Positions 3,481 to 23,639 of a stretch of 23,639 nt of DNA are shown here, one piece after another. Positions within the stretch are counted from its first letter, which is position 1. The number at the start of each line of letters is the position of its first letter. The notes beneath the pieces are model-generated. The model made no database searches and was not told where the DNA came from. It saw nothing but the letters and a program-made list of their open reading frames with translations. The translations under genes were made by a program, and so were the position numbers. The stretch spans positions 1 to 23,639 of IMG/VR virus record IMGVR_UViG_3300025112_000195; one strand, 5' to 3'. Source of the DNA: a virus.

Positions 3481-3825
3481 ATGACAAAACAGTTATACAG
3501 TAGTCCTGCAGATATCCAGATCATGGTTGACCTGTACTTTGATGATGCGGTTGCGGCTGAAGACCCCGTGAGTATTGCTGGGTTGGCTTATGCACTAGGC
3601 TTCGTCAGTCGGCAGTCGTTGTACGACTATGAACGCAAAGAATTGTACGCTGACGTAATAAAAAAAGCCCGTCTTAGGGTCGAAGCATACATGGTCAAAC
3701 GGTCGATCAAATCGAATGGGGCGGGGGCTATATTCCAGCTAAAGAATATGGGCTACACAGACCGCCAGGTTATGCAAATTGAGCCTGTAACGATCAATAT
3801 TAGCGGTAAGGACAGCGAATTGTGA
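3481..3825 (+). CDS. terS: Terminase small subunit (DNA-packaging protein)
   Basis: The 114-residue protein matches the pattern of phage small terminase or DNA-packaging proteins of the gp3-package type. It has an N-terminal helix-turn-helix-like stretch (SIAGLAYALGFVSRQSLYDY, about residues 31-50), a basic helix, and SNGAGAIFQLKNMGYTDRQ near 79-97, where such proteins typically read GNAAGAIFALKN. TerS oligomers recognise the packaging site and feed DNA to TerL. An in-frame TGA at 3475-3477 sits just before the ATG, so translation cannot begin further upstream. The only purine-rich match, GAGG, ends one base before the ATG, which is too close for a normal ribosome-binding site. It is the first rightward gene after the divergent region. 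TerL follows about 2.3 kb later rather than next door, which is unusual. Confidence 0.82.
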   Translation: MTKQLYSSPADIQIMVDLYFDDAVAAEDPVSIAGLAYALGFVSRQSLYDYERKELYADVIKKARLRVEAYMVKRSIKSNGAGAIFQLKNMGYTDRQVMQIEPVTINISGKDSEL

Positions 3826-5151: not shown

Positions 5152-5700
5152 ATGAGCAGACAACAGACAACAGACTTAATTGAGATCACGCAGACGAATG
5201 CAATCTGCATACGGGACATTATCTCGCAAGGTGGAGTTAGACGGTTTCACCGCCATGTTATTGAGGCAGAGTGTTCAGATGAACACCCACTGGCCCATGC
5301 GATCAGGGACGTGCTGCCTATGGTTGATCCTCGTGATTTTTCGCGTATGACCGACGGAGTGAAGGTGTATCAGGATTTTATTCGGGTACAGGTGCGGTCT
5401 GGTTTTGTACGGGTAGACGACTGCACCTATGTGGTTGAGGATGGTCAGGTGGTTGTTGATGAGATAACGGCCAGACGGGTGATCTACCCAGGCGACGATT
5501 ATTCTGGCGAGAAGGTCAAGGTGCGGAAGGTGTGTGAGATCGTTCATACGCAGGAAGCAATCGACAACTATGCCACCATCAAAGCGGCAGACGCAGCAGC
5601 AGAGGCCAAGCGAGTGGATGAGCAGGACGCTGTTCTCGCCCAGGCCGCAGAGGAGTTCAAGCAGGCAGTGGCAGATGAGGTAGCGAGGCAACTGGCATGA
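5152..5700 (+). CDS. Hypothetical phage protein with Ala/Glu coiled-coil tail (182 aa)
   Basis: Residues 1-130 are mixed alpha/beta with no known motif. Residues 135-182 form an Ala-, Glu- and Lys-rich helix likely to be a coiled coil (AADAAAEAKR and later EEFKQAVADEVARQL). No good ribosome-binding site precedes the ATG, which lies three bases after the previous stop, so expression is probably coupled to the fibre-like gene. Its stop overlaps the start of the peptidase gene as ATGA. The coupling suggests these three proteins are made together. A chaperone or attachment partner for the preceding fibre-like protein is a possibility inferred only from position and the coiled coil. Confidence 0.65.
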   Translation: MSRQQTTDLIEITQTNAICIRDIISQGGVRRFHRHVIEAECSDEHPLAHAIRDVLPMVDPRDFSRMTDGVKVYQDFIRVQVRSGFVRVDDCTYVVEDGQVVVDEITARRVIYPGDDYSGEKVKVRKVCEIVHTQEAIDNYATIKAADAAAEAKRVDEQDAVLAQAAEEFKQAVADEVARQLA

Positions 5701-6119
5701 TAACCGCCCGACTGTCTCTCCGTAATGATGCCGCCGGTGCTGGACACTTTGGTGCCCCTCGTGGGAGTCGGACTCACAAAGGACAGGACTATGCCGCCAC
5801 CATTGAAGCGCCTGTCAGTGGTAAGGTTACCAAACTTGGGTACCCGTATGGCTCAGGCTATGGGGGTGCCAGTCACACGGGTGAGGAGGAAACGTATCGG
5901 TATGTCGAGATAACAGATACTATCGAGCGACGGCATCGGGTGTTCTACATTCAGCCCGATCCAGCCATCAAGGTCGGAGACTTTGTGTCAATGGGTGACC
6001 CGATAGGTGTTCTTCAGGCTGTCACGTCGCGCTATCCGCAGTATCCTGCCATGACCGTTCATTCACACTACGAGATCATGCTGCCCGATGGCAGTTGTGT
6101 CGATCCGGTAGAGGGTTAG
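5697..6119 (+). CDS. M23-family zinc metallopeptidase (peptidoglycan endopeptidase), candidate endolysin
   Basis: The 140-residue protein is nearly all one LytM/M23 domain. HKGQD at residues 27-31 supplies H27 and D31, and HSH at 122-124 supplies the second zinc and catalytic histidines, the family's HxxxD and HxH pattern. Between them come APVSGKV (about 38-44) and VGDFVSMGDPIGV (about 92-104), both typical of this fold. M23 enzymes cut peptide cross-links of peptidoglycan. There is no signal peptide, so release would need a holin, or the enzyme could be carried in the virion. GAGG precedes the ATG at about 8 bases, and the ATG overlaps the previous stop. TerL starts three bases after its stop. 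Metal-site residues are intact, so activity is expected. Endolysin or virion-associated hydrolase cannot be separated by sequence. Confidence 0.82.
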   Translation: MITARLSLRNDAAGAGHFGAPRGSRTHKGQDYAATIEAPVSGKVTKLGYPYGSGYGGASHTGEEETYRYVEITDTIERRHRVFYIQPDPAIKVGDFVSMGDPIGVLQAVTSRYPQYPAMTVHSHYEIMLPDGSCVDPVEG

Positions 6120-7898: not shown

Positions 7899-8167
7899 GC
7901 AAGTCACTTAACAACTCACATAATCTTGCGATCAGTACTGATCCGTTGTCACGACAGGCGAAAAATCGTGATCTTGACTTTGCTGGTGAAATACTTGCAC
8001 CTATCGAACCGCTGCCGCCAAAAGGTCCGAAATCGACACCCGTGCCATATTCATCCACTCGTACCGGTCAACGGTCCAGACGCCGACCGATCCAGGCACC
8101 CTTACAAAGGGATTTGTTCGCCGGTACAGTATTGGGCGGTGAAGCTACAAGGAATACATTAGGATGA
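7895..8167 (+). CDS. Hypothetical protein upstream of the connector (90 aa)
   Basis: The 90-residue protein is Pro-, Ser- and Arg-rich with little predicted secondary structure in its middle. It has PIEPLPPKGPK near 36-46 and a basic TRTGQRSRRRP near 55-65. The ATG has GAGAGGA upstream, and its stop overlaps the ATG of the connector gene. It is probably flexible, which fits a small head or packaging accessory protein, but I recognise no family. A shorter alternative frame at 7926-8162 is treated as its shadow because it lacks a coupled start. Confidence 0.6.
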   Translation: MSKSLNNSHNLAISTDPLSRQAKNRDLDFAGEILAPIEPLPPKGPKSTPVPYSSTRTGQRSRRRPIQAPLQRDLFAGTVLGGEATRNTLG

Positions 8168-9744
8168 AACTGGATGCTACGAAGTTAATAGAACTGGCTG
8201 ACAAGCAGTTTAAAAATCAGTCAGTGATGAAAAGCCTGTGGCAAATATTGGGTGATCATTTCTATCCTGAGAGAGCAGATTTCACTACAACTCGTAATGT
8301 CGGCCAGGAGTTTGCTGACAACCTGATGGATTCGTTTCCGCTCTTAATCCGTCGTGACCTGGGTAACTCGCTGTCGGCAATGCTGCGCGATGGCAACTGG
8401 TTCAAAATGGGTGTTGCCAATCGAGAACCTGACTACGCCGGTATCGAGTGGTTGCAACGTAATACCATACAGTTGCGACGCCATATGTACCACCGATCCG
8501 CAGGGTTCGTGAGAGCGTCCAAGGAAGGCGACCATGATTTCGTTACGTTCGGGCAGTGTGTTAAATCAGTCGAAATGAACCGTTTGCACAACGGACTGTT
8601 GTTCCGCTGTTGGCACATGCGGGATTGTGCCTGGTTTGAAGACGAAACAGGTCAGGTGTGCGGAGTTATGCGTAAGGCGAAGATGTCCAGACGTGATTTG
8701 ATCAGTTATTTTGGTAAGGACAATATTCATGCGGAGATCGTGCGGGACGAGATGCGCGACCCGTTTCATGAGATTGAGGTGCTACACCTGTCTATTCCAA
8801 CGAGAATGTTGGGTGACGATGAAATGGAATCGAAATTCTCGTATGTATCGATTTGGATTGACAAGGCGCACAAGGAAGTGATTGAGGAAGTGGGTATGAA
8901 CCACAAGATGTATGTGGTTCCCAGGTTCCAGACGATTGCCGGTAGTGCCTATGCGTACTCACCAGCCACTACGGTCGGTCTGTCAGATTCACGTACCCTG
9001 CAAGCGATGACGCATACCCTGATGGAAGCGGCAGAACGGTATGCCCGTCCACCGGTTATTGCGACAGCTAATGTAACACGCTCAGATATCGACCTGGGGC
9101 CGGATGGTGTCACTTACGTGGATGAGGGGTATGATGAGCGACTGGGTCCCTCACTGCGTACCATCGCCCAAGACAGGGGTGGGTACCCCATTGGTAAGAC
9201 TGAGCGCGAACGGATCACTGATACCCTGAACAGTGCGTTTTATCTGAACAAATTGAGTCTACCCGATGTCACTCATGAAATGACTGCGTATGAGGTGAGC
9301 GAACGGATGAAGCAGTTCCGGCGCGAGAATTTACCGCTGTTTGCACCCATCGAGGCAGAGGACAACGGTCAGACCTGCGAACTCGCGTTTGAAATTGCAA
9401 TGGAAAACAATATGCTTGGGTCGCACTACGACATACCCCCGTCGTTACGTGGCGCTGATGTAGAGTTTAAATTTGAATCACCGCTGACCGCCAGTGAGAA
9501 TGAAGAAATCGCGGAACGCTATGCACGGACCAGGGAAATGCTGGCCGGTGCAATTGAACTCGATCCGATGGTGGGTCATGATATCGATCTGTCAGAAGCA
9601 ATCCGTGACGCAGTAGTTGGGATCGGCGCACCGACAACCTGGCTGGTTCCACCGGATGAGGCGTTGGAAAGCAAGCAGATGGCTAAGGTTCAGGAAGTAG
9701 CTATGCAAGCATTGGAGACTCAAGGGAATGACGGTTCAAGATGA
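8164..9744 (+). CDS. Head-tail connector (portal) protein, T7 gp8 type
   Basis: The 526-residue protein matches the podovirus head-tail connector family. It has an N-terminal helical segment with KSLWQILGDHFYPERADF (about 19-36), DLGNSLSAMLRDGNWFKMGV near 61-80, a mid-domain ending near VVPRFQ, and a long helical C-terminal half containing VTHEMTAYEVSERMKQFRRENLPLFAPIE. Connectors form dodecamers at the unique capsid vertex, initiate prohead assembly and conduct DNA for TerL. T7 gp8 is 536 residues, so this length is normal. The ATG overlaps the previous stop as ATGA. The last 17 bases overlap the next gene. No truncation is seen. Confidence 0.9.
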   Translation: MKLDATKLIELADKQFKNQSVMKSLWQILGDHFYPERADFTTTRNVGQEFADNLMDSFPLLIRRDLGNSLSAMLRDGNWFKMGVANREPDYAGIEWLQRNTIQLRRHMYHRSAGFVRASKEGDHDFVTFGQCVKSVEMNRLHNGLLFRCWHMRDCAWFEDETGQVCGVMRKAKMSRRDLISYFGKDNIHAEIVRDEMRDPFHEIEVLHLSIPTRMLGDDEMESKFSYVSIWIDKAHKEVIEEVGMNHKMYVVPRFQTIAGSAYAYSPATTVGLSDSRTLQAMTHTLMEAAERYARPPVIATANVTRSDIDLGPDGVTYVDEGYDERLGPSLRTIAQDRGGYPIGKTERERITDTLNSAFYLNKLSLPDVTHEMTAYEVSERMKQFRRENLPLFAPIEAEDNGQTCELAFEIAMENNMLGSHYDIPPSLRGADVEFKFESPLTASENEEIAERYARTREMLAGAIELDPMVGHDIDLSEAIRDAVVGIGAPTTWLVPPDEALESKQMAKVQEVAMQALETQGNDGSR

Positions 9745-11879: not shown

Positions 11880-12710
11880 ATGGCTGACACAGCATTTCAA
11901 ACTATGTATCGTCAAGAGTTTGTTGCTGGTTTTGAGAAACGCCAGTCTTTGATGCGTCATACGACCATCACGGAGACTGAGATAAACGGTAACACTGCAA
12001 CCTTTCTGGTTGCTGACTCTGGCAGTGCAACCGCTGTCACTCGTGGTGCGAATGGTGACATTCCGACACGAGCTGACAATCTGAATCAACCTGCTGCTAC
12101 CTTAGCAGAATGGCATGATGTTCCTGAACGAACCGGCTTCAACCTCTATGCCTCACAAGGCAATGGTCGTCGGATCATGCAGGAAACATCAATGGCAGTT
12201 ATCAATCGTAAGATTGACGAAGACATTCGTACTGCCTTGGATGCCGCAACCGTGACCTGGGGTGCAGCAGCAGTTGCTACACTCACAAGAGTTACAGTTG
12301 CAAAAACAAAGTTGGGAAATGCGTTTGCGACAAAGGACGCCCCGATTTATGCTGTAATAACACCGGCCTTTCACGGGTATCTGATGGGATTAGCATCGTT
12401 TACTTCCGTAGACTATATCAGTCAGAAACCATTTGAGAAAATATCTACGGATATAGCCTTCGCATGGTTTGGAGTGAACTGGCTTGTTGATGGTGATCTC
12501 AACGGTGCCGGTAGTGCCAATGCGACGTGCTTTATGTACTCGCAGAATGCCATCGGTCATGCGATGGACGCCGAACGACTTCAAACGTATGCAGACTACG
12601 ACAGAAAAAATGACAAGTCGTGGGTCAGATGTACGACATACATGGGGTCTAAACTCTTGCAAAACGCCGGTGTGGTTAAGATGCCGCACGACGACTCTGC
12701 ATTGTCATAA
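11880..12710 (+). CDS. Major capsid protein
   Basis: The 276-residue protein has the pattern of a podophage capsid family: MADTAFQTMYRQEFVAGFEKRQS at the N-terminus (given here only as a landmark), TATFLVADSG near 40-49, AVTRG then DIPTRADN near 52-66, and a C-terminal WVRCTTYMGSKLLQNAGVV region. It follows the scaffold and a 140-base leader, as expected for a highly expressed capsid gene. HK97-fold capsid proteins form the icosahedral shell. No protease gene or N-terminal processing region is evident here. The ATG at 11880 is used rather than the out-of-frame ATG at 11874. Family and role are inferred from sequence pattern and position. Confidence 0.85.
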   Translation: MADTAFQTMYRQEFVAGFEKRQSLMRHTTITETEINGNTATFLVADSGSATAVTRGANGDIPTRADNLNQPAATLAEWHDVPERTGFNLYASQGNGRRIMQETSMAVINRKIDEDIRTALDAATVTWGAAAVATLTRVTVAKTKLGNAFATKDAPIYAVITPAFHGYLMGLASFTSVDYISQKPFEKISTDIAFAWFGVNWLVDGDLNGAGSANATCFMYSQNAIGHAMDAERLQTYADYDRKNDKSWVRCTTYMGSKLLQNAGVVKMPHDDSALS

Positions 12711-12725
12711 GGGAGGTAGTAACAA

Positions 12726-13646
12726 ATGAGTTATGCAATAAGTAATCCTCCTCGTATGATCTCTCAAAGTGTTGGTGCCAATGGTGGCGACCTGTGGATG
12801 TACAAAGACGGCGACAGCCTGACAACTGTCGGCGGTGTCAATTACGTGTCTAATGCTGCCGATCTTGGTCTTAAAGCCGGTGATGCTGTTTTGCATATAG
12901 ATGAAACTTTGTTGACTACCACCCTTACAACTGCTGTTGCTCATCGCACCAGTGGTACTGCTAGTGGTGCGCTGTGTAGTGCCATTGAGCCAATCGGTGA
13001 AAGTTCCATTGCACTGCAAAGTGCGGGAACCGGTACCTTTGTGATCGACGATATTGTCACCTTTGATAACGATCCAGATACTGAGTATCGAATCACTACC
13101 GGTGATGCTGATATCTCAGGTGGTGGTACGTTGGTAGTCACACCTGTGTTGGTCAAGGCGACAGCAGTGGGTACGGGTATCAAGGTCAAATCGGGTGTTA
13201 TCAATCTTGCAACCGGCAAGACTGGTCGCAAAGTCCACGCATCGTCAGCAGCAACCCGACTGATCCAACCGTCGGAATCTGGTGACATGTTCTTGATGGA
13301 CAGTGCTGCTGGTCAGTCGTTCACTCTGCCGGAAGCTGTTGTTGGTCTGAAGTATAGTTTCCTGGTCACGGTCGATCTGACATCGAACGCTTATGCGGTG
13401 CTTTGCAGCACGGCAACAGCCGGTGATTTCATGGTCGGTGCCATGCAGGGTAATATCGAAGGTGCCGCAACAGGTGAGACTCACTTTGCCAACGGCAGTA
13501 CCCACCTTGGGATGTCCATGAACAAGACCACTACTGGTGGTTTGATCGGTACATGGTTCGAGGTCGAGTGTATTTCTACGGTCTTGTGGGCGGTCACAGG
13601 CGTTGCGTCCTGTACGGCTACCCCCGCAACCCCGTTTACTACATAA
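12726..13646 (+). CDS. Capsid decoration-type beta protein, copy 1 (306 aa)
   Basis: The protein is Thr-, Ser-, Gly- and Ala-rich and all-beta. Residues about 30-60 (KAGDAVLHID) precede a core at about 68-190 that includes FVIDDIVTF, a DTEYRITTG strand and TLVVTPVLVKA. A C-terminal jellyroll-like part starts at LPEAVVGLKYSFLV near 200-213. The core strands resemble the small beta domain used by phage decoration or cement proteins and by capsid insertion domains. It directly follows the major capsid protein. GGGAGG is placed about 8 bases before the ATG. The next gene is its paralog: the cores are nearly identical in protein while both termini differ. A head decoration or head-fibre role is likely, not proven. 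Confidence 0.7.
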   Translation: MSYAISNPPRMISQSVGANGGDLWMYKDGDSLTTVGGVNYVSNAADLGLKAGDAVLHIDETLLTTTLTTAVAHRTSGTASGALCSAIEPIGESSIALQSAGTGTFVIDDIVTFDNDPDTEYRITTGDADISGGGTLVVTPVLVKATAVGTGIKVKSGVINLATGKTGRKVHASSAATRLIQPSESGDMFLMDSAAGQSFTLPEAVVGLKYSFLVTVDLTSNAYAVLCSTATAGDFMVGAMQGNIEGAATGETHFANGSTHLGMSMNKTTTGGLIGTWFEVECISTVLWAVTGVASCTATPATPFTT

Positions 13647-13691: not shown

Positions 13692-14618
13692 ATGACTTAT
13701 GTAATAGCTAATCCTCCTCGACTGGTTACCCAAAGTGTTGGTGCCAATGGTGGTGATCTGTGGGTGTATAAAGATGGCGACACGCTGAACAGCGTTGCCG
13801 CTGTAAACTACGTGTCCAATGCTGCTGATCTTGGTCTTAAAGCCGGTGACGCAGTACTGCATGTAGACACTACCGACTTGGTTACCAATCTGTTAACGGC
13901 AGTTGCCCATCGTACCAGTGGTACCGCGAGTGGTGCCCTGTGCAGTGCTATCGAGCCAATCGGTGAGAGTTCCATTGCACTACAGAGTGCGGGAACCGGT
14001 ACGTTTCTGATTGACGATATCGTAACCTTCGATAATGATCTGGATACTGAGTATCGTATCACCACGGGTGACGCTGATATTTCCGGTGGTGGCACGTTGG
14101 TGATCACGCCTGTGTTGGTCAAGGCGACTGCGGTTGGCACGGGTATTAAGGTCAAATCAGGTGTGGTCAATCTGTCAACCGGTAAGACTGGGCGCAAAGT
14201 TCATGCGTCGTCACCAGCAACCCGACTGATCCAACCGTCGGAATCTGGCGACATGTTCCTGTTCGATAGCGCAGATGGTCAGGTGTTCACGCTGCCAACG
14301 GCAGTTGTCGGTCTGAAGTATAGTTTTATGACGACCGTAACTGTGACTGCGGCCGATACTTACGGACTGCTAACCAGTACGGCAACAGCCGGTGATTTCT
14401 TTGCCGGTGCTGTCATAGTATCTGTAGAAGGAAGCGGTAGTGAGAATGACACTTACTTTGCAGATGGTGCTGCTGATCTAGGTGTTGTGTCAAACGGATC
14501 GACTACAGGTGGTCTGATCGGTGGCTGGATTGAAATCGAGTGTCTAACAACAGCAGTTTGGTCGATCAAGGCTGTTCTTAATGGCACCGGTACAATCACC
14601 ACTCCGCTCACCACATAG
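13692..14618 (+). CDS. Capsid decoration-type beta protein, copy 2 (308 aa)
   Basis: This is the tandem paralog of the preceding gene. From about residue 68 to 190 the two proteins differ at only a handful of positions, mostly conservative. The first 65 residues are moderately similar, and the last 100 diverge clearly (here DSADGQVFTLPTAVVGLKYSF, then a different ending). The same architecture applies: N-terminal strand region, conserved beta core, C-terminal beta domain. Most differences in the core are synonymous, which points to an old duplication kept by selection. AGGAG lies about 6 bases before the ATG, just after the tetraloop hairpin. Two related proteins could occupy different sites on the capsid, or present different outer surfaces on a common capsid-binding core. 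Confidence 0.7.
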   Translation: MTYVIANPPRLVTQSVGANGGDLWVYKDGDTLNSVAAVNYVSNAADLGLKAGDAVLHVDTTDLVTNLLTAVAHRTSGTASGALCSAIEPIGESSIALQSAGTGTFLIDDIVTFDNDLDTEYRITTGDADISGGGTLVITPVLVKATAVGTGIKVKSGVVNLSTGKTGRKVHASSPATRLIQPSESGDMFLFDSADGQVFTLPTAVVGLKYSFMTTVTVTAADTYGLLTSTATAGDFFAGAVIVSVEGSGSENDTYFADGAADLGVVSNGSTTGGLIGGWIEIECLTTAVWSIKAVLNGTGTITTPLTT

Positions 14619-15174: not shown

Positions 15175-16923
15175 ATGGCTGTTACAAAACTCAGCCTCTA
15201 CAATGATGCGCTCTTGCTGGTCGGGGAACGTGCCCTCTCAAGTGATACAGAGGATGTTCCGGTACGTTATGATCTGGATCGTGCATATGACGATCCAGAC
15301 GCTAACGACTACTGTCTGGAACTGGTCAAGCCTAAGTTCGCAATGCTGGTGGGCAAACTCAGCCCAGGTACGGTAGCGACCAACCACGGACTGGCTCAGA
15401 CGTATGCGTTTCCGGCAGCATACATTGCGTTTGTTGAAGTCTACGATACCGCAGAACTCGATGAGGTAATTCACCGTTATATCATTGAGGATCGGACGCT
15501 CTACTGTGATGTAGATACAAACATCTGGTTGCGGTACATTCAAAGTGGTATAGCACTTGCCAACTGGACCCCGACGTTTGCCAGTGTGGTAGCCTGTTAT
15601 CTGGCTAAGTCAATCGCGCCACGGGTCGCACCGCAGAAACTGATCAGTTTGGAAGAACTGTTTCTCAGTCGGGTGCAAGCGGCGATCACACTTGAGGGTG
15701 CCAAGGAAACTCAGCCACGTCCACCGTCGTCCACGGTAACGCTGACCAGTGACTATCAGAATGTTTATAACGGTGCGCTCAATCTCATGGGTAAGCCTCA
15801 CATCATCAGCACCAATGATGATTCTGAGATACGGGTCGCACTGGACTCGATCATCGACAGTGGTGCGGTCAACTACCTGTACGAGATTACCAAACCCAAG
15901 TTCGCACTTGAGACTAACAGGCTGACATCCTCATCGACCAGTGCCAATCACGATCTTGACAACGTGTTTACTTTGCCTTCTGACTACCTGGCAATCTGTG
16001 AACTACATGCCGATCCGCTGATGGACGAACCAATCACCCAGTATTTGATCGAGGGTCGGACGATTGCCTGTAAGTACGAAACGATCTACTTGCGGTTTAT
16101 TTCCAGCAGTCCAGCGACCAGTGACTGGACCCCAGGTTACAAACAGTTGTTGTCAGCTTATCTGGCCGATCAAATCAAGGCCCGATTTGTCGAAGACGCT
16201 GAACTTCGTAAGGACATCACCGCTACATTCTCTGTCCGACTGAACTACCTGATCAAACATGAAGGGTTCAAGGAATCGGATCGAGGCACCAGAACAACAG
16301 CTACAATCGACGACGAATGGCGCAAGATATATAACAAGGCGTTTTTCATCTTGGGACTCGATGAGATAGTATCCAACGACGACGATTCGCCCCGTCGCAC
16401 CAAGGCAGATGTGTCGGTCGGTATGGGCATTGTCAACGCTACTCTGGAAGATATCGGTTGGGCGTTTGCGATGACCGGCCAGGAGATAACCTACGATCCG
16501 TCGTTAGAACCAGGGTGGGGGCATAACAGGGTGTACGCTCATCCTAGTGACATGCACCGACTGGGCGGTGTCTTTCAGGATGAGTTCTTCACTACCCCAC
16601 TGAAGGACTACGAAGATGACAATGGTTACTGGTTCTGCGGATTGGACACGATCTATGTCAAGTACGTCAAGACCAGTTTCATGACAGCACCCAGTAGCTG
16701 GCCGCAGTATTTCGCCAATCTCGTTGCTGCCAATATTGCAATTGAGATCGGCCCCAGTCTAAGCGGCAATGTGGATAACGCAGTCGCACGACAGGACCAG
16801 TTCAAACGTGAGGCACGGTCAACGGATGCTATGACCGGCTCACCCCAACACATCAGAGAAGGCAGATGGGTGAGATCGAGGTCAAGCGGTCGGTCTACCG
16901 GCTTGCGTAATGGTAGACCTTAA
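15175..16923 (+). CDS. Tail adaptor (T7 gp11-like) with three tandem domains
   Basis: T7 gp11 (tail tubular protein A) is about 196 residues; this protein has 582 and reads as three copies of that domain. Repeats begin at Y9, Y198 and Y386 (YNDAL, YNGAL, YNKAF), spaced 189 and 188 residues. Each has the same order: a Tyr-Asn-x-Ala helix, an acidic turn, W/KPKFA-like helix, F-P-x-Y/D hydrophobic strand (FPAAYIAF, LPSDYLAI, HPSDMHRL), R/Y-YI-E-x-x-I/L-Y-x-K/D strand, then W-P/T-x-F and AxxIA helix. The gp11 ring joins the connector to the nozzle. Repeats 1 and 2 are closer to each other than to repeat 3, and the C-terminus after 560 is Arg- and Ser-rich. GGAG lies about 9 bases before the ATG. 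The single frame is intact, so this is a fusion or triplication, not a frameshift. Confidence 0.85.
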   Translation: MAVTKLSLYNDALLLVGERALSSDTEDVPVRYDLDRAYDDPDANDYCLELVKPKFAMLVGKLSPGTVATNHGLAQTYAFPAAYIAFVEVYDTAELDEVIHRYIIEDRTLYCDVDTNIWLRYIQSGIALANWTPTFASVVACYLAKSIAPRVAPQKLISLEELFLSRVQAAITLEGAKETQPRPPSSTVTLTSDYQNVYNGALNLMGKPHIISTNDDSEIRVALDSIIDSGAVNYLYEITKPKFALETNRLTSSSTSANHDLDNVFTLPSDYLAICELHADPLMDEPITQYLIEGRTIACKYETIYLRFISSSPATSDWTPGYKQLLSAYLADQIKARFVEDAELRKDITATFSVRLNYLIKHEGFKESDRGTRTTATIDDEWRKIYNKAFFILGLDEIVSNDDDSPRRTKADVSVGMGIVNATLEDIGWAFAMTGQEITYDPSLEPGWGHNRVYAHPSDMHRLGGVFQDEFFTTPLKDYEDDNGYWFCGLDTIYVKYVKTSFMTAPSSWPQYFANLVAANIAIEIGPSLSGNVDNAVARQDQFKREARSTDAMTGSPQHIREGRWVRSRSSGRSTGLRNGRP

Positions 16924-16925
16924 TT

Positions 16926-19667
16926 ATGTCAGTCCCAGTCCGTCAATACGGGAACAAGTTCAATCGTGGTGAGATAGACGCACTCGCAATAGCGAGGGAT
17001 GATATTGTCAAGGTCAACACCTCCGGCACCTTGATGGAAAATTTCATGCCGATCCGTCTTGGTCCCATGATGTTTCGGCCAGGGTTTGAGTACATCGGTG
17101 AACATGCCGATGCTACCGATGTCTATAACATTCCTTTTGTGGCGTCAACTTCCGATACCGCAAGTTTAGAATTCACCGACAATCTGTTGCGCGTGTGGGT
17201 GTCTGACGCACTTCTCGCCGCCGTTACCCGAAACACTACAATCGCCAATGGTACGTTTGATGCTAATGTGACCAGTTGGACAGATGCTGATGGGACTGGT
17301 GCAACCAGTGTATGGGTGGCTGGTGGATACTGTGGACTTACTGGTACTGGTACTGAGTCTGCTGTTAGATATCAAGGAACATCAGCATGGGACACTGCGG
17401 CAGAGCATCGATTACGAATAATTATCAAAGATGCTCCTGTACTGGTTGAAATAGGTAACACAGTTGCTGCAACTCCTGCCGCACATACTGCTGATATTTT
17501 TTCTGGTATTCTTGGACCAGGCACCCATTCATTAGTGTTTACTCCAACCGCTGACATTGATATTACATTTAGTAACTCAAGCAAGCAAAGAGCATTAGTT
17601 GACAGTGTAGCGTTTGAAACTACTGGTACTTTTTCGCTCCCCACATCGGTAGCCGAAGCAAACCTGCCAACAATCAGGTACGCCCAGTCTGCCGATGTGG
17701 TTTTTGTTGCATACTCAGGCGGTCAGCAATTCAAGATCGAGCGTCGTAGTACAGGGTCATGGTCGATTGTCGATTATAAACCGCTTGATGGCCCTTTTGG
17801 GTTTATCAATTCCACCGATGTAACATTGGCACCTGGTGCGTTGTCTGGCGGTAATCAAACTTTGACGGCCAGTAAAGCCTATTTCAATTCAAACGATGTT
17901 GGGTCTATTTTTAAACTGGTATCTCAAGGCCAAGAGGTGACAGCAACTCTGACAGCCCAAAGTACAGGGACAGGGTCAATACGTGTAACAGGTGTTGAAG
18001 CATCCCGAATATTTATCATTATAGTGACAGGTATTGTTGACTCAACGATTACCTTGCAGCGGTCAACGGATGATTCTACTTGGACAGACGTTGAGTCGTA
18101 TGGCACTGTACAAATTAAGAATTTTGATGACGGGTTTGACAATTCAATTCTCTATTATCGATTACACATCAAGACCGGTGATTACGGGACGGATACAGTT
18201 GCTGCATCGTTAGAATATGAAGGTGGTTCAGTTGAAGGCATTGGCCTGGTTACTAGCTACAGCTCAACTACAATTGTCAACATCAATATCGTGATTGATT
18301 TTGGTCGAACAGACGCTACCCGTGACTGGTATCGAGGTGAGTGGAATACGAAGTCTGACGGCACCAGTGGCTACCCGACCGCTGTTGCATTGTATGAAGG
18401 CAGGTTGTGGTGGGGTGGTCGTACAAAGGCATGGGGGTCGGTGTCAGACGCATTCACGTCATATGATGACACGATTTCAGGAGATTCAGCGGCAATACCT
18501 AAGACTATTGGTTTCGGTCCTGTTGACAATGTTGAATGGTTGTTGCCGCTGAATCGACTGATCATGGGTATTGCATCAGATGAACTGTCTGTCCGATCCA
18601 ACAGTTTTGGTGATGTACTGACACCCAGTAACACTAACATCAAACGTGGGTCCAGTCAGGGTGCGGGAGGTCGAGAACCTGTTGCTGTGAACGGTCGAGG
18701 ATATTTTATTCAACGGTCATTACAGAAGATCTACGAACTTGAATATGAATACAACCAGGACATTCATGATTCAGCCGATTTAACCGTACTGAATCCCAAT
18801 ATATTGAGTGCAGGGGTTAAGCGAATAGCAGTAACCATGCAGCCGGAAATACGGATATACGTCGTATTGGATGACGGTGAGGCGAGAGTTTTTCTGATGG
18901 ACAAGTCAGAGGATGTAATGGCGTGGAGTCGAATCATAACTGCCGGATCGGACACCATTGAAGATGTCCATGTGTTGCCAGCCACTGGTGAGGACCGTGT
19001 GTATTTTTCTGTTATCAGAGGAGGTGGTCATTATCTTGAGAAGATGGCGTTGTTCAGCGAAGCAATTGGTGGCAGCACATCCAAGCACACGGACTCATTT
19101 AAAACGTATACATCACCTGGGAGTGCAGTTCTCACAGGGTTAGATCATATTGAAGGTGAAACAGTCCATGTGTGGGCTGATGGTGCGTATGAGGGCACCT
19201 ATACTGTAGCAAGCAATCAGATCACGGTCGGATCGGCAGCGTACACTAACGTGGTCGTTGGGATGCGGTACACTGCCAATTACACATCGTCGAAGTTGGG
19301 TAATGGAAAGTATTCGACCTTGACCTACGATAAGCGAGTGGTTAACACAGGGTTCATTCTGCAAAACTACTGGCCGAATGGTTTGTTGGTCGGGCCGGAC
19401 TCATCGAACTTGAAAGCGTTTCCCGATATTGAAGACGGTAAGGCAGTGGTGCTGACAGCTACATTATCAGCATACGATCATAAACCGTTCACGTTTGATG
19501 GTGTAATGGAAACCGATCCGCGTATTCATCTTCAGGCGGTCAATCCGGTAACGATCAAGGCAATGTCATACGGACTGGATGAAAGCAATGATCCGACTCA
19601 ACAAGAAATGTTAGCAAACAGACAATTGGATTATTACGGTGCAGATAAGACCGATGATACAGAGTGA
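16926..19667 (+). CDS. Tail nozzle (T7 gp12-like, tail tubular protein B)
   Basis: The 913-residue protein starts with a short motif used by nozzle proteins: N/F-x-P-I/R-x-G-P near 39-47 and RPGFEYIG at 51-58. A long beta-rich body follows with VALYEGRLWWGG at 487-498 and SDAFTSYDD at 507-515, typical of this family. T7 gp12 is about 794 residues; the excess of roughly 120 matches an apparent insertion at about 104-232 (starts TIANGTFDANVTSW), a pattern common in galactose-binding-like or carbohydrate-binding beta domains. The nozzle forms the short tail tube below the adaptor and bears fibre sites. The gene begins two bases after the adaptor stop. No fibre gene is seen elsewhere in the window except the short one at 4576. 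Confidence 0.85.
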   Translation: MSVPVRQYGNKFNRGEIDALAIARDDIVKVNTSGTLMENFMPIRLGPMMFRPGFEYIGEHADATDVYNIPFVASTSDTASLEFTDNLLRVWVSDALLAAVTRNTTIANGTFDANVTSWTDADGTGATSVWVAGGYCGLTGTGTESAVRYQGTSAWDTAAEHRLRIIIKDAPVLVEIGNTVAATPAAHTADIFSGILGPGTHSLVFTPTADIDITFSNSSKQRALVDSVAFETTGTFSLPTSVAEANLPTIRYAQSADVVFVAYSGGQQFKIERRSTGSWSIVDYKPLDGPFGFINSTDVTLAPGALSGGNQTLTASKAYFNSNDVGSIFKLVSQGQEVTATLTAQSTGTGSIRVTGVEASRIFIIIVTGIVDSTITLQRSTDDSTWTDVESYGTVQIKNFDDGFDNSILYYRLHIKTGDYGTDTVAASLEYEGGSVEGIGLVTSYSSTTIVNINIVIDFGRTDATRDWYRGEWNTKSDGTSGYPTAVALYEGRLWWGGRTKAWGSVSDAFTSYDDTISGDSAAIPKTIGFGPVDNVEWLLPLNRLIMGIASDELSVRSNSFGDVLTPSNTNIKRGSSQGAGGREPVAVNGRGYFIQRSLQKIYELEYEYNQDIHDSADLTVLNPNILSAGVKRIAVTMQPEIRIYVVLDDGEARVFLMDKSEDVMAWSRIITAGSDTIEDVHVLPATGEDRVYFSVIRGGGHYLEKMALFSEAIGGSTSKHTDSFKTYTSPGSAVLTGLDHIEGETVHVWADGAYEGTYTVASNQITVGSAAYTNVVVGMRYTANYTSSKLGNGKYSTLTYDKRVVNTGFILQNYWPNGLLVGPDSSNLKAFPDIEDGKAVVLTATLSAYDHKPFTFDGVMETDPRIHLQAVNPVTIKAMSYGLDESNDPTQQEMLANRQLDYYGADKTDDTE

Positions 19668-20447: not shown

Positions 20448-22468
20448 TGGCAACAATCGGTAGACCAGAAGATATAGAACGAGTCATTCCCCGTGGCAGT
20501 CAACCTATTGCAACCATTCGTAATGCTGGTGCCATCGGTGCAGCGGTTGCTGATCTGGGTACTAGCATCGATCAAGCGGCCAGGGTTGCTGAAAATTACA
20601 AGCTGCGCAAGGACCGGACAGAACTTGTAACGGCCAACAGTAAGTTCGGTATTGATCGGTATAAGTTGCTCAAAGAATTTGAAGATCGTGATGGTGCTAA
20701 CGGAAGCTACAACAAATGGGGTGAGGAGTATCAGACAAATGTTGACGAGTTACTCCGTGAACGAGCAAAGACTATTTCAAACTCCAGGCTGAGAACTGAG
20801 TTTGAAGAATCTCAACAACTCAGTATTGCCGAAGGTGCCGGACGACTGCATGATCACGTTAAGAAAGTTGAGACAGATTTCAAACTTGAAGACTTGAATG
20901 TTCAGTTGGACGACTGGCGAGAGGCTGCGATTAATGGGGATGGTAGGAGCGCTATTTTTGCTATTGAGAGCATGGTTGAACGTTATGAGCTGAACGGGTG
21001 GTTACCGGAGAATAATCAAGTAGCTGAAAATTTCAGACAGAGTGCTGTTAAGGGTTGGATCGAATCACTACCGTCGAACGGGGAACAAGTTGCAGCATTA
21101 GAGTCAGAGTTGGCGAAAGCTAATATGCGGACCGACGTGCGTAAGGCATTACTCAAGGTTGCCAAGGTAGGGGAACTTGCTTATGTCGCTGAACAGATTA
21201 CTCAGAAATATATCGATGACGACATGACATTCGGTGAAATGATTAAAGACGCCGATGATATCGAGGTTGGTGATAAGAGGATCGGTAAACATTTCACTAA
21301 GGAAAGTCTTGTTAAGTTGAAAGTTGAAATCAGACGTCAGGCTAGAAATCGAGAGACTTATCGAGACCATGCCGATCTGGATACTCAGTCTGATCTTCAT
21401 CTTGAATATTACCAGAATATTCGTAGGGGGAAAATCAATCCGGAAACTGGACAACCTTACAAAGTGTCGGACATCCTTCCTGCCGATCTTGAAGAGATGT
21501 CGATAGGTTTACGCAACATGCTGATCGCCGCAGAAGGACAGACGGGCGATCGCACAGTGACACGAACACCTGAGGCAATTCTCGATAAGTTGCTTCAGTA
21601 TCAACACGCTAAAGATTGGACCGGTATGCGTAAATATATATTAGGTTACAAAGAGTCTGCTCCTGATACTAACGGCGAGACTGTTCGTAAAGAGCAGATC
21701 CAGGAACAAAAGGATGCTCTTTTTGAGAAAATTAAAAACGTTCGTCAGACATATAGATTACCAAGTAAAGGCCTGACTAACGATGAAATGTTAGACATAG
21801 AGTCTGCTGTTAGATGGGGGCTTCCAACAATGCCCCCGGACGATCGTAAAAGGATCGAGAGATTTATCGAGACCACAATTCGCGACAAAGGCAAGAATTA
21901 CGATGAAATACTGGTAGCCATAGAGTCAGTTTTGACGAAAGCTGACGCCAGTATTGATGATGAGGAGGAGGCAGGTGTTAAGACAATTGAAGGAGTCGCC
22001 CAGTGGATGACCGCCAGTCACGCTGACAGGTTCATGTCGATGGCATATGACAAGTCTTATAATCCCGACAAGCGACGTAGTTTCTTCACTACTATGGAGA
22101 TGATTCGTTCAAAGTTGGACAAGGCAAAGAAAAAGGATGGTTTCTCTGCGATGGTTGATGCTACCGGCATGTGGATAGACGCGATTTACGAAAACACCGG
22201 TCAGGAACCGACAGATAAGCAGGTTAGAGATTTTGTCGATACGCAGTTAATGATCGACTATGATTGGTATAATGAACGAGTTTATGAATTGGATGCTGAA
22301 GAGCTGGACAAGTTCTATTCTGAGAATATGACAGATGAACAGAAATTTCAGTATATGACAACGACTAGGCCGTTTCTTTATCAGAAGATTCGAGACCTTC
22401 CGGACTTTGAGGATGCAAGCAATCAGAAAATATTAGAGGCAATGGAGCACAGTGCCGCTAACAGATGA
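20447..22468 (+). CDS. Internal core protein, T7 gp15-like (673 aa)
   Basis: This large hydrophilic, helix-rich protein is full of Lys, Glu, Asp and Arg, with likely coiled-coil parts at about 50-160 and 400-560. It shows no enzyme motif, signal peptide or membrane span. T7 gp15 is 747 residues and forms the middle of the internal core that is ejected into the periplasm. Position between the gp14- and gp16-like genes is the main evidence. The ATG at 20447 follows GGGGA about 3 to 8 bases upstream and overlaps the previous stop, so I prefer it to the GTG at 20438. The last 17 bases overlap the next gene. Confidence 0.7.
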   Translation: MATIGRPEDIERVIPRGSQPIATIRNAGAIGAAVADLGTSIDQAARVAENYKLRKDRTELVTANSKFGIDRYKLLKEFEDRDGANGSYNKWGEEYQTNVDELLRERAKTISNSRLRTEFEESQQLSIAEGAGRLHDHVKKVETDFKLEDLNVQLDDWREAAINGDGRSAIFAIESMVERYELNGWLPENNQVAENFRQSAVKGWIESLPSNGEQVAALESELAKANMRTDVRKALLKVAKVGELAYVAEQITQKYIDDDMTFGEMIKDADDIEVGDKRIGKHFTKESLVKLKVEIRRQARNRETYRDHADLDTQSDLHLEYYQNIRRGKINPETGQPYKVSDILPADLEEMSIGLRNMLIAAEGQTGDRTVTRTPEAILDKLLQYQHAKDWTGMRKYILGYKESAPDTNGETVRKEQIQEQKDALFEKIKNVRQTYRLPSKGLTNDEMLDIESAVRWGLPTMPPDDRKRIERFIETTIRDKGKNYDEILVAIESVLTKADASIDDEEEAGVKTIEGVAQWMTASHADRFMSMAYDKSYNPDKRRSFFTTMEMIRSKLDKAKKKDGFSAMVDATGMWIDAIYENTGQEPTDKQVRDFVDTQLMIDYDWYNERVYELDAEELDKFYSENMTDEQKFQYMTTTRPFLYQKIRDLPDFEDASNQKILEAMEHSAANR

Positions 22469-23639
22469 AGAAAAACGCGCATTAGATGAAATGGGCGACG
22501 ACCGCTTAGGGCAGTCGCTATATCGTGCTGCTCGAAAGAATCCTGATGAGTCAGCCAAGATTATCCAGATATCCGACAGCCAAGGACTTCCCACCGATAC
22601 GGTTGAACGTAATCGGGTAGAGACTGAGGCACGTCACAAATACGGTAATATCAGTGTAAGCGAACTTCGTAAGGCCAGTCCGATTACGGCTGAGTACCTG
22701 GAAGACAACGCCCGTGTATCAATTGATGATATCCCAGTCCTCAGAGGTATCGAGAAGGCGCTTACTGATTCTGCGACCCCTTGGTCTGAGGTGTTCAGTA
22801 GATCATTCGATGCTGGCACTTTGGGGCTTGCTAAAAGTGCTTCTGAAATAATTGGGCAAATGCATATCGGTTTGCGTTACCCAATTGCTGATTATATGGA
22901 TGATCGAGAAAGAGCCGAATTGTATAAACGTGTTAACTCGTCATCTTCTGCTTCTCGTCTGCGTGATGAACTAGCCCAACTTGATACACCGGAAGAAAAG
23001 CAGGCATTGCGCGATAAATATGCTGACATTATTGAAAATCCATTGACACCAGAACAATCAGCTCGACGCACACAGGATATTCTCAGTGACCCTGACATTG
23101 CATCTCAACGAAATATCAGCACCAGTCTTGACCAGCAAGCCAGTGAGATGCGAATCAAAACAGATCGGTTTACACCTCGTGGTGTAATTTCAGCAGCCAT
23201 AGAGTCAGTCACCCACATGGTACCAGGATTAGCACTGGGCGCTCTTACTGGAACAGGTAGTATTGCATTGGGATCAATTGCTGCTCATGTGTATGGTCAA
23301 GAATTGTATTATGGGCGCGAAGTTCTTGGTCTTGATGAAAATACGAATCTAGGTCGCGCATTCACGATGGCGAGTACCGAAACATTAGCTGAAATACTTC
23401 CTGTCATGGCATTTTTGGGTAAAAGTGGTGCTGACACCGCACTTCGACAATGGTTACTGGGGACCTTTGGTGAAGCGGGTGAAGAAGTAATTACTGAACT
23501 TGTGCAAAAGGGATTGGATAAAGGGATATACGAAAAAGATGCCAATATGGACAAGGTATTTGACTGGTTATTTTCTCTTGAAGGTTTAAAGGATCTAGGG
23601 TTTTCAGGTCTTGTTGGTGGGCTTGTTGGCACTGTGTTG
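22452..23639 (+). CDS. Internal virion (ejection) protein, T7 gp16-like, cut by the right edge
   Basis: The frame opens with a GTG at 22452 (GGAG four bases upstream) and stays open for 396 codons to the window end, so the product is longer. The start is PLTDEEKRAL. Residues about 1-100 are helical and charged, and 100-260 contain helices with a Leu- and Arg-rich charged run. A Gly/Ala-rich hydrophobic segment follows near 255-280 (MVPGLALGALTGTGSIALG). After it come YGQELYYGREVLGLD and a FGEAGEEVITELVQKGLD-like run near 348-365, patterns frequent in very large phage polyvalent or internal virion proteins. No lytic transglycosylase domain is visible in this part. T7 gp16 is about 1,318 residues, so roughly one third is seen. 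Confidence 0.72.
   Translation, partial: MPLTDEEKRALDEMGDDRLGQSLYRAARKNPDESAKIIQISDSQGLPTDTVERNRVETEARHKYGNISVSELRKASPITAEYLEDNARVSIDDIPVLRGIEKALTDSATPWSEVFSRSFDAGTLGLAKSASEIIGQMHIGLRYPIADYMDDRERAELYKRVNSSSSASRLRDELAQLDTPEEKQALRDKYADIIENPLTPEQSARRTQDILSDPDIASQRNISTSLDQQASEMRIKTDRFTPRGVISAAIESVTHMVPGLALGALTGTGSIALGSIAAHVYGQELYYGREVLGLDENTNLGRAFTMASTETLAEILPVMAFLGKSGADTALRQWLLGTFGEAGEEVITELVQKGLDKGIYEKDANMDKVFDWLFSLEGLKDLGFSGLVGGLVGTVL

Follow-up and report, generated by a model that had tools for sequence, protein, structure and literature searches.

Three tandem gp11-like domains in one viral tail adaptor gene, a series of relatives with other domain numbers, and a proposed stack of rings between portal and nozzle

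The window considered here is the whole stretch of DNA that was analysed, 23,639 nucleotides of the virus record IMGVR_UViG_3300025112_000195, and its principal features are collected in Table 1. The tail adaptor gene occupies the place usual for tail adaptors, downstream of the portal and capsid genes and adjoining the tail nozzle gene, and no other adaptor-like open reading frame was found in the 23.6-kb window. Among solved structures the nozzle protein matched the 'Tail Nozzle' of Carin-1 (8ck1_A, E 7e-18) and orf18 of LME-1 (9efk_M, 6 chains, E 2.3e-9). The interval between the capsid and adaptor genes holds two genes (12726-13646 and 13692-14618) whose products, of 306 and 308 aa, are 74% identical over 295 residues and both match phrog_18004 at the N-terminus; the pair is a recent tandem gene duplication, with a role perhaps in head decoration. 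Elsewhere in the window a gp3-like small DNA-packaging protein is encoded at 3481-3825 (PF16677, E 1.8e-12), 5697-6119 gave a weak match to an M23 peptidase that lies below the cut-off (E 8.9e-5), and the incomplete last gene (22452-23639) matched LPD22, a large polyvalent protein associated domain (E 1.9e-12).

Table 1. Coordinates of the adaptor gene, its parts and the neighbouring structural genes in the window
Feature	Position	Strand	Remarks
Tail adaptor gene, three tandem gp11-like domains (F-I-T)	15175..16923	+	582 aa + stop codon
Domain 1, class F (first)	15175..15741	+	phrog_394 E 8.7e-20 alone; class profile A4; segment test
Domain 2, class I (internal)	15742..16305	+	phrog_394 E 2.3e-18 alone; class profile A2
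Domain 3, class T (terminal)	16306..16920	+	phrog_394 E 1.6e-19 alone; class profile A3
Domain 1 residues 17-40 (helix1-helix2 loop and helix 2)	15223..15294	+	position of T7 gp11 nozzle contact
Basic C-terminal tail, residues 562-582	16858..16920	+	pLDDT <50 in monomer model; position of T7 gp11 portal-embracing element
Tail nozzle gene	16926..19667	+	913 aa; phrog_376 E 1.5e-115; directly downstream of adaptor
Portal (head-to-tail connecting protein)	8164..9744	+	526 aa; PF12236 E 1.9e-46; phrog_332 E 1.1e-55
Major capsid protein	11880..12710	+	phrog_3437 E 1.7e-50; PF19821 E 2.9e-21

A first-pass annotation had read the adaptor frame as three homologous domains starting at Y9, Y198 and Y386, each close in length to T7 gp11, and had proposed that the thirds be aligned with each other, compared with gp11 by profile and examined for a common fold. 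The 582-aa translation bears out this description, with repeat start pairs at Y9-N10, Y198-N199 and Y386-N387, and the length of T7 gp11, given as about 196 residues, is indeed 196 aa (CDS 24228-24818). Pairwise local alignment of the thirds, each against 1000 shuffles, placed all three comparisons far above the shuffled scores, with 255 for domains 1 and 2 (shuffle maximum 52, z 45), 141 for domains 2 and 3 (shuffle maximum 51, z 26) and 87 for domains 1 and 3 (shuffle maximum 57, z 12.5). Identity within the protein was 33% between domains 1 and 2, against 25% between domains 2 and 3 and 21% between domains 1 and 3, and the third repeat is the most diverged, as had been claimed. The whole protein matched phrog_394 (190 aa, 'tail protein') in three stretches with an E of 4.4e-60, and each third also matched this family by itself.

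T7 gp11 is assigned to phrog_446, not to phrog_394. The profile A5, built from 30 relatives with a single domain, was aligned by hhalign with the family profile of T7 gp11 over 185 columns, with a probability of 95.5% and an E of 1.6e-8, the match to T7 gp11 as one sequence being weak (probability 19%). Searched against the PDB, the same profile retrieved the 'Connector Protein' of Carin-1 (8ck1_E, E 3.8e-14) and LME-1 orf17 (9efk_T, E 1.7e-7), which is present in 12 chains in 9efk. A direct sequence search of the PDB with the 582-aa protein or a three-row profile gave no matches, and the deeper single-domain profile was needed. An AlphaFold2 monomer model built from 42 sequences (mean pLDDT 85) predicted helices at residues 5-16, 29-38 and 41-51 of domain 1, strands within 57-123 and helices at 133-151 and 153-174; this order (H-H-H-beta-H-H) recurs from residue 192 and again from residue 380, and the predicted order of helices and strands is identical in the three thirds. 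The linkers between the domains were modelled with low confidence and the C-terminal tail as disordered. Foldseek comparison of the model with the PDB placed LME-1 (E 3.5e-8) and Carin-1 (E 4.1e-8) at the top, followed by PhiM1, KP32 TTPA, E1004, P-SCSP1u and T7 gp11, all of them adaptors or portal-tail complexes (entries matched include 9efk, 8ck1, 7box, 6r21 and 5mu4). The hallmark of the adaptor superfamily, a helix bundle with an inserted beta fibre-dock domain of ~190 aa, is thus present three times, and the feature that is absent is the single adaptor domain per chain, the number being three here and from 1 to at least 6 in relatives. Because of the profile matches, the repeated fold and the adaptor matches in Foldseek, the 582-aa protein is identified as a single chain of three adaptor domains, and so as a variant with several domains within the gp11 / tail tubular protein A superfamily. 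The conditions that the first-pass annotation had named as refuting it, a failure of the thirds to align with one another or with gp11 and a difference in fold between them, were checked and did not refute it.

Comparison with known adaptors shows where the protein departs from them. With T7 gp11 (tail tubular protein A, phrog_446; PDB 6r21, 7box) it has in common the fold, the whole-domain profile similarity and the Foldseek match, and the place before the nozzle points to an adaptor role; the T7 protein, however, is a single domain of 196 aa in another PHROG and without a direct single-sequence match. LME-1 orf17 and the Carin-1 connector are the closest solved sequence relatives by profile, and the nozzles of these phages are also related, but both are single-domain adaptors, of 201 and 222 aa. 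Gp13 of Vibrio phage VP5 / phiVC8 (phrog_9239) has one phrog_394 domain at its N-terminus and adjoins a tail protein of the phrog_376 type, which was recovered with the nozzle model used here as well, but in the VP5 protein (L002, 5983-8211) the adaptor domain is followed by several Ig/Hoc-like domains and not by more adaptor domains.

Relatives were sought by scanning viral contigs with the domain profiles, a narrower profile (A11) taking the place of the terminal-class profile A3, which was too diverse for scanning, and near-identical proteins were merged. A single-protein search of viral contigs had found no close relatives, and no host or prophage copies were found in bacterial and archaeal genome contigs. 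The complete open reading frames comprised 60 with one domain (N=1), 51 with N=2, 13 with N=3, two with N=4 (L013 and L119), one with N=5 (L096, 960 aa) and one with N=6 (L020, 1165 aa), counts which reflect what the searches returned and not frequencies in nature. The gene of the window is thus one member of a copy-number series, which the first-pass annotation had not recognised. One further N=3 array (L204) is a relative of L122 (1099-4251), a gene of at least six domains that is cut by a contig end. The longest array is apparently one of about 10 domains, if L099 (8001-10037) and L100 (1-3542), which carry 3.6 and 6 domains at the two ends of the 56-kb contig IMGVR_UViG_3300046534_001186, are one gene. 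Both contig ends fall inside repeats with 97-98% protein identity, and it is therefore probable that long arrays are under-counted or split in short-read assemblies. A separate adaptor gene was sought in 21 virus records of up to 56 kb and none was found, all matches falling in one array gene. One single-domain adaptor (L078, 7992-8798) ends at its C-terminus in ~18 Thr-Pro repeats.

The domains of the arrays are ordered First-Internal(n)-Terminal, with one clear exception in L122, where domain 3 (residues 387-562) is interior yet terminal-like in its A3 profile match and WxF motif and lies between internal-type domains. In proteins with N of at least 4 the internal neighbours are the most alike (48-98% identity) and the end domains the least like their neighbours (24-38%), except in the diverse L119 and L122. 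Extra copies arise by duplication of internal domains, and the recent ones are under purifying selection; young internal copies gave dN/dS values of 0.02-0.26, from which it follows that the copies were kept working, though gene conversion could contribute to such values. A tree of the nozzle proteins built with FastTree placed N=1 on one side of a branch with support of 98 and derived all multi-domain forms from one origin; at least five changes are required to account for N=3 on this tree, and a high-N group mixes N = 3, 4, 5, 6 and about 10. The N=2 state therefore looks single in origin and the further copies repeated. In the high-N group (L020, L096, L100, L104 and L119) the nozzle proteins are 1137 to 1609 aa long, some of them cut, the usual length being 860-960 aa. 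The N-terminal region of the nozzle, compared between N=1 phages and those with N of at least 2, was conserved no better than the rest of the nozzle and so adds no support.

T7 gp11 touches the nozzle through the loop that joins its helices 1 and 2, with E26, D35 and D39 as contact residues, and the portal (stem) through its dock together with the C-terminal embracing helix (PMC6702177). Domain 1 of the array has the N-terminal helix-loop-helix common to single-domain adaptors, domain 3 has the GWxFA / DPSLEPxWG dock and the basic C-terminal tail, both also held in common with them, and domain 2 is T-like in its lower segment and F-like in its upper segment. The four classes, single-domain (S), F, I and T, were compared segment by segment. 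Residues 1-45 of the single-domain adaptors were matched best by F in 51/57 cases, residues 46-135 by T in 54/57 and the C-terminal tail by T in 47/57. Mean BLOSUM scores over non-redundant sets paired S with F (1.91) and I with T (1.41) at residues 17-40, against 0.72 for S-T and 1.15 for F-I, and the pairing was reversed both in the beta dock (S-T 1.47 and F-I 1.61 against S-F 0.80 and I-T 0.75) and in the C-terminal tail (S-T 1.11 and F-I 0.82 against about 0 for S-F and I-T). Residues 1-40 gave a contrast statistic of +0.63 where random columns gave -0.37 +/- 0.20, a null that takes no account of phylogeny or of the single origin of the multi-domain forms, and the segment 131-172 did not separate S-F from S-T. 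The suggestion in the first-pass annotation that repeat 3 is specialised was upheld. The portal-side dock and tail of single-domain adaptors were found on the last domain only. By analogy with T7 gp11, the comparison suggests that the first domain alone has kept the surface of the nozzle side and the last domain alone that of the portal side, and that the inner domains share different, matching surfaces at the positions where domains would meet each other. Opposite matching at the two ends of a domain is not what neutral divergence following a single duplication should produce; an early recombination event could have contributed to the pattern. End surfaces on different domains, with the opposite pairing inside, are what is expected for N stacked rings, but not what is expected for a ring of equivalent domains or for one complete ring with decorations at its side.

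The preferred reading, held at a probability of roughly three in four, is that the covalent tandem array is the adaptor between portal and nozzle and that twelve chains would form N coaxial rings in the order portal-T-I...-F-nozzle. Assembly would take place on the 12-fold portal, domain k of each of the twelve chains entering ring k; the terminal domain, at the C-terminus, would grip the portal, the first domain, at the N-terminus, would seat the six-fold nozzle, and the internal domains would form the rings between those of the terminal and first domains. Together the N dodecameric rings, three in the present virus, would make up a coaxial barrel, and gain or loss of internal domains would change the length of the tail. 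Stacked rings were among the options that the first-pass annotation had offered, and the end surfaces of F and T together with the copy series now argue for them. The reading is preferred because the copy series has a fixed order, because of the interface pattern, because the LME-1 relatives are present as 12 adaptor and 6 nozzle chains and because a precedent exists in PhicrAss001; the lack of a separate adaptor gene in the 21 records and the low dN/dS of young copies add to this. In LME-1 the 12 chains of orf17 and the 6 chains of the orf18 nozzle in 9efk are sequence relatives of the adaptor and nozzle of the window. The three-domain model had a pTM of 0.46, and models of two-domain relatives a pTM of 0.60, so that single chains gave no confident domain-domain orientation, which fits a geometry set by assembly, without proving it. 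T7 gp11 is a monomer in the absence of the portal (PMC6702177). The T-like interior domain of L122 counts against the reading.

Among the alternatives the one that fares best, though it is improbable, is that one domain from each of twelve chains forms a single canonical ring and the other domains project outward as fibre or spike docks or as decoration. The fold includes a beta domain that is a fibre dock in T7 (PMC6702177), the related gp13 of VP5 carries Ig-like decoration domains after its one adaptor domain, and the low-confidence linkers leave the inter-domain orientation free in the models. Against it, the nozzle-side (F) and portal-side (T) features lie on different domains and none has both contacts, and the fold is complete in the internal domains too, down to the helices which in T7 form the lining of the channel. 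Less credit can be given to the proposal, made in the first-pass annotation, that one ring of twelve domains is built from fewer chains (12/N, four here) with consecutive domains side by side. Linkers of ~17 residues could also bridge adjacent domains of one ring, and the first scan gave only N = 1, 2, 3, 4 and 6, all divisors of 12; the rule that N divides 12 was dropped once the complete N=5 gene L096 appeared. Five does not divide twelve, which argues against a ring of four chains and twelve domains, since a five-domain protein cannot tile it in whole chains; nor does the array of about 10 domains on two contig ends favour it, and the features of the nozzle and portal sides occur once per chain on domains that are not interchangeable, yet in such a ring every domain would touch both. 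Least probable of all is a polyprotein counterpart of the PhicrAss001 stack, in which a protease would release the adaptor domains singly from the chain and the freed domains would build separate rings. Model confidence is lowest in the linkers, and the window has a gene that weakly matches a phage protease (10807-11739, phrog_458 E 2.4e-6), but this gene immediately precedes the capsid gene, the usual place for a head-maturation protease.

Short-tailed phages normally have one adaptor ring. The precedent for several is PhicrAss001, in which five stacked dodecameric rings made from four paralogous ring proteins form a barrel of ~23 nm, and the ring nearest the muzzle binds and adapts to the six-fold muzzle through its residues 15-26 (PMC10172136). 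Its authors noted that other podoviruses had previously been seen with one ring only and that theirs was the first with several (PMC10172136). The ring domains of R1-R5 are paralogous and have in common a beta-sandwich and three conserved helices (PMC10172136; PDB 7qog, 7qoj), and ring chains of this phage (7qog_B and 7qoj_D) were among the Foldseek matches of the model. The likeness would lie in several dodecameric rings between the portal and the muzzle or nozzle, as judged here from the sequence pattern and the copy series. However, the rings of PhicrAss001 are separate proteins, four genes serving five rings, whereas the domains here make up a single fused chain, encoded in an unrelated gene set beside phrog_376-type nozzles and with a copy number of 1 to at least 6. 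The array may work like the ring barrel of PhicrAss001, but it is not a member of that type, because one gene holds all the domains and none was found elsewhere in the 21 records. At ~4.6 nm for each ring (the 23 nm of PhicrAss001 divided by five) three rings would give a barrel of ~14 nm.

If the reading of the array as stacked rings is true, these phages reached the several-ring end of PhicrAss001 by fusing and multiplying a ring domain instead of by using several genes, and a length ruler would be written as a repeat count and not as a tape-measure protein or as separate ring genes. It is somewhat favoured, with less assurance than the stack itself, that the number of adaptor domains per chain sets the length of the tail barrel throughout the lineage, each internal gain or loss amounting to one ring, up to ~10. 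The natural series from N = 1 to at least 6, and apparently ~10, amounts to an experiment already set up, the gene sets being otherwise similar, and the question it poses is whether barrel length and reach through capsules or outer layers vary with repeat number. The series would also show how a stack of rings evolves, with the end interfaces kept and the inner interfaces changing.

The adaptor superfamily and the principle of stacked rings were already known, and it is the fused, countable form that appears to be new. A described adaptor with a tandem layout was not found in the papers searched, which belonged to one open literature collection, nor was a structure of a multi-domain form. Several tandem adaptor proteins nevertheless stand unnamed in the databases. 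Two unnamed UniProt/BFVD entries gave full-length structural matches to the three-domain model, A0A516L4P3 (583 aa, 66% identity over 584 columns) and A0A516M5L4 (1139 aa, 36% identity over 594 columns), so that multi-domain relatives are already deposited without name or description. A single-domain adaptor (L154, 7998-8570 of MW202898.1) has been deposited as 'major capsid protein', a label that is probably wrong.
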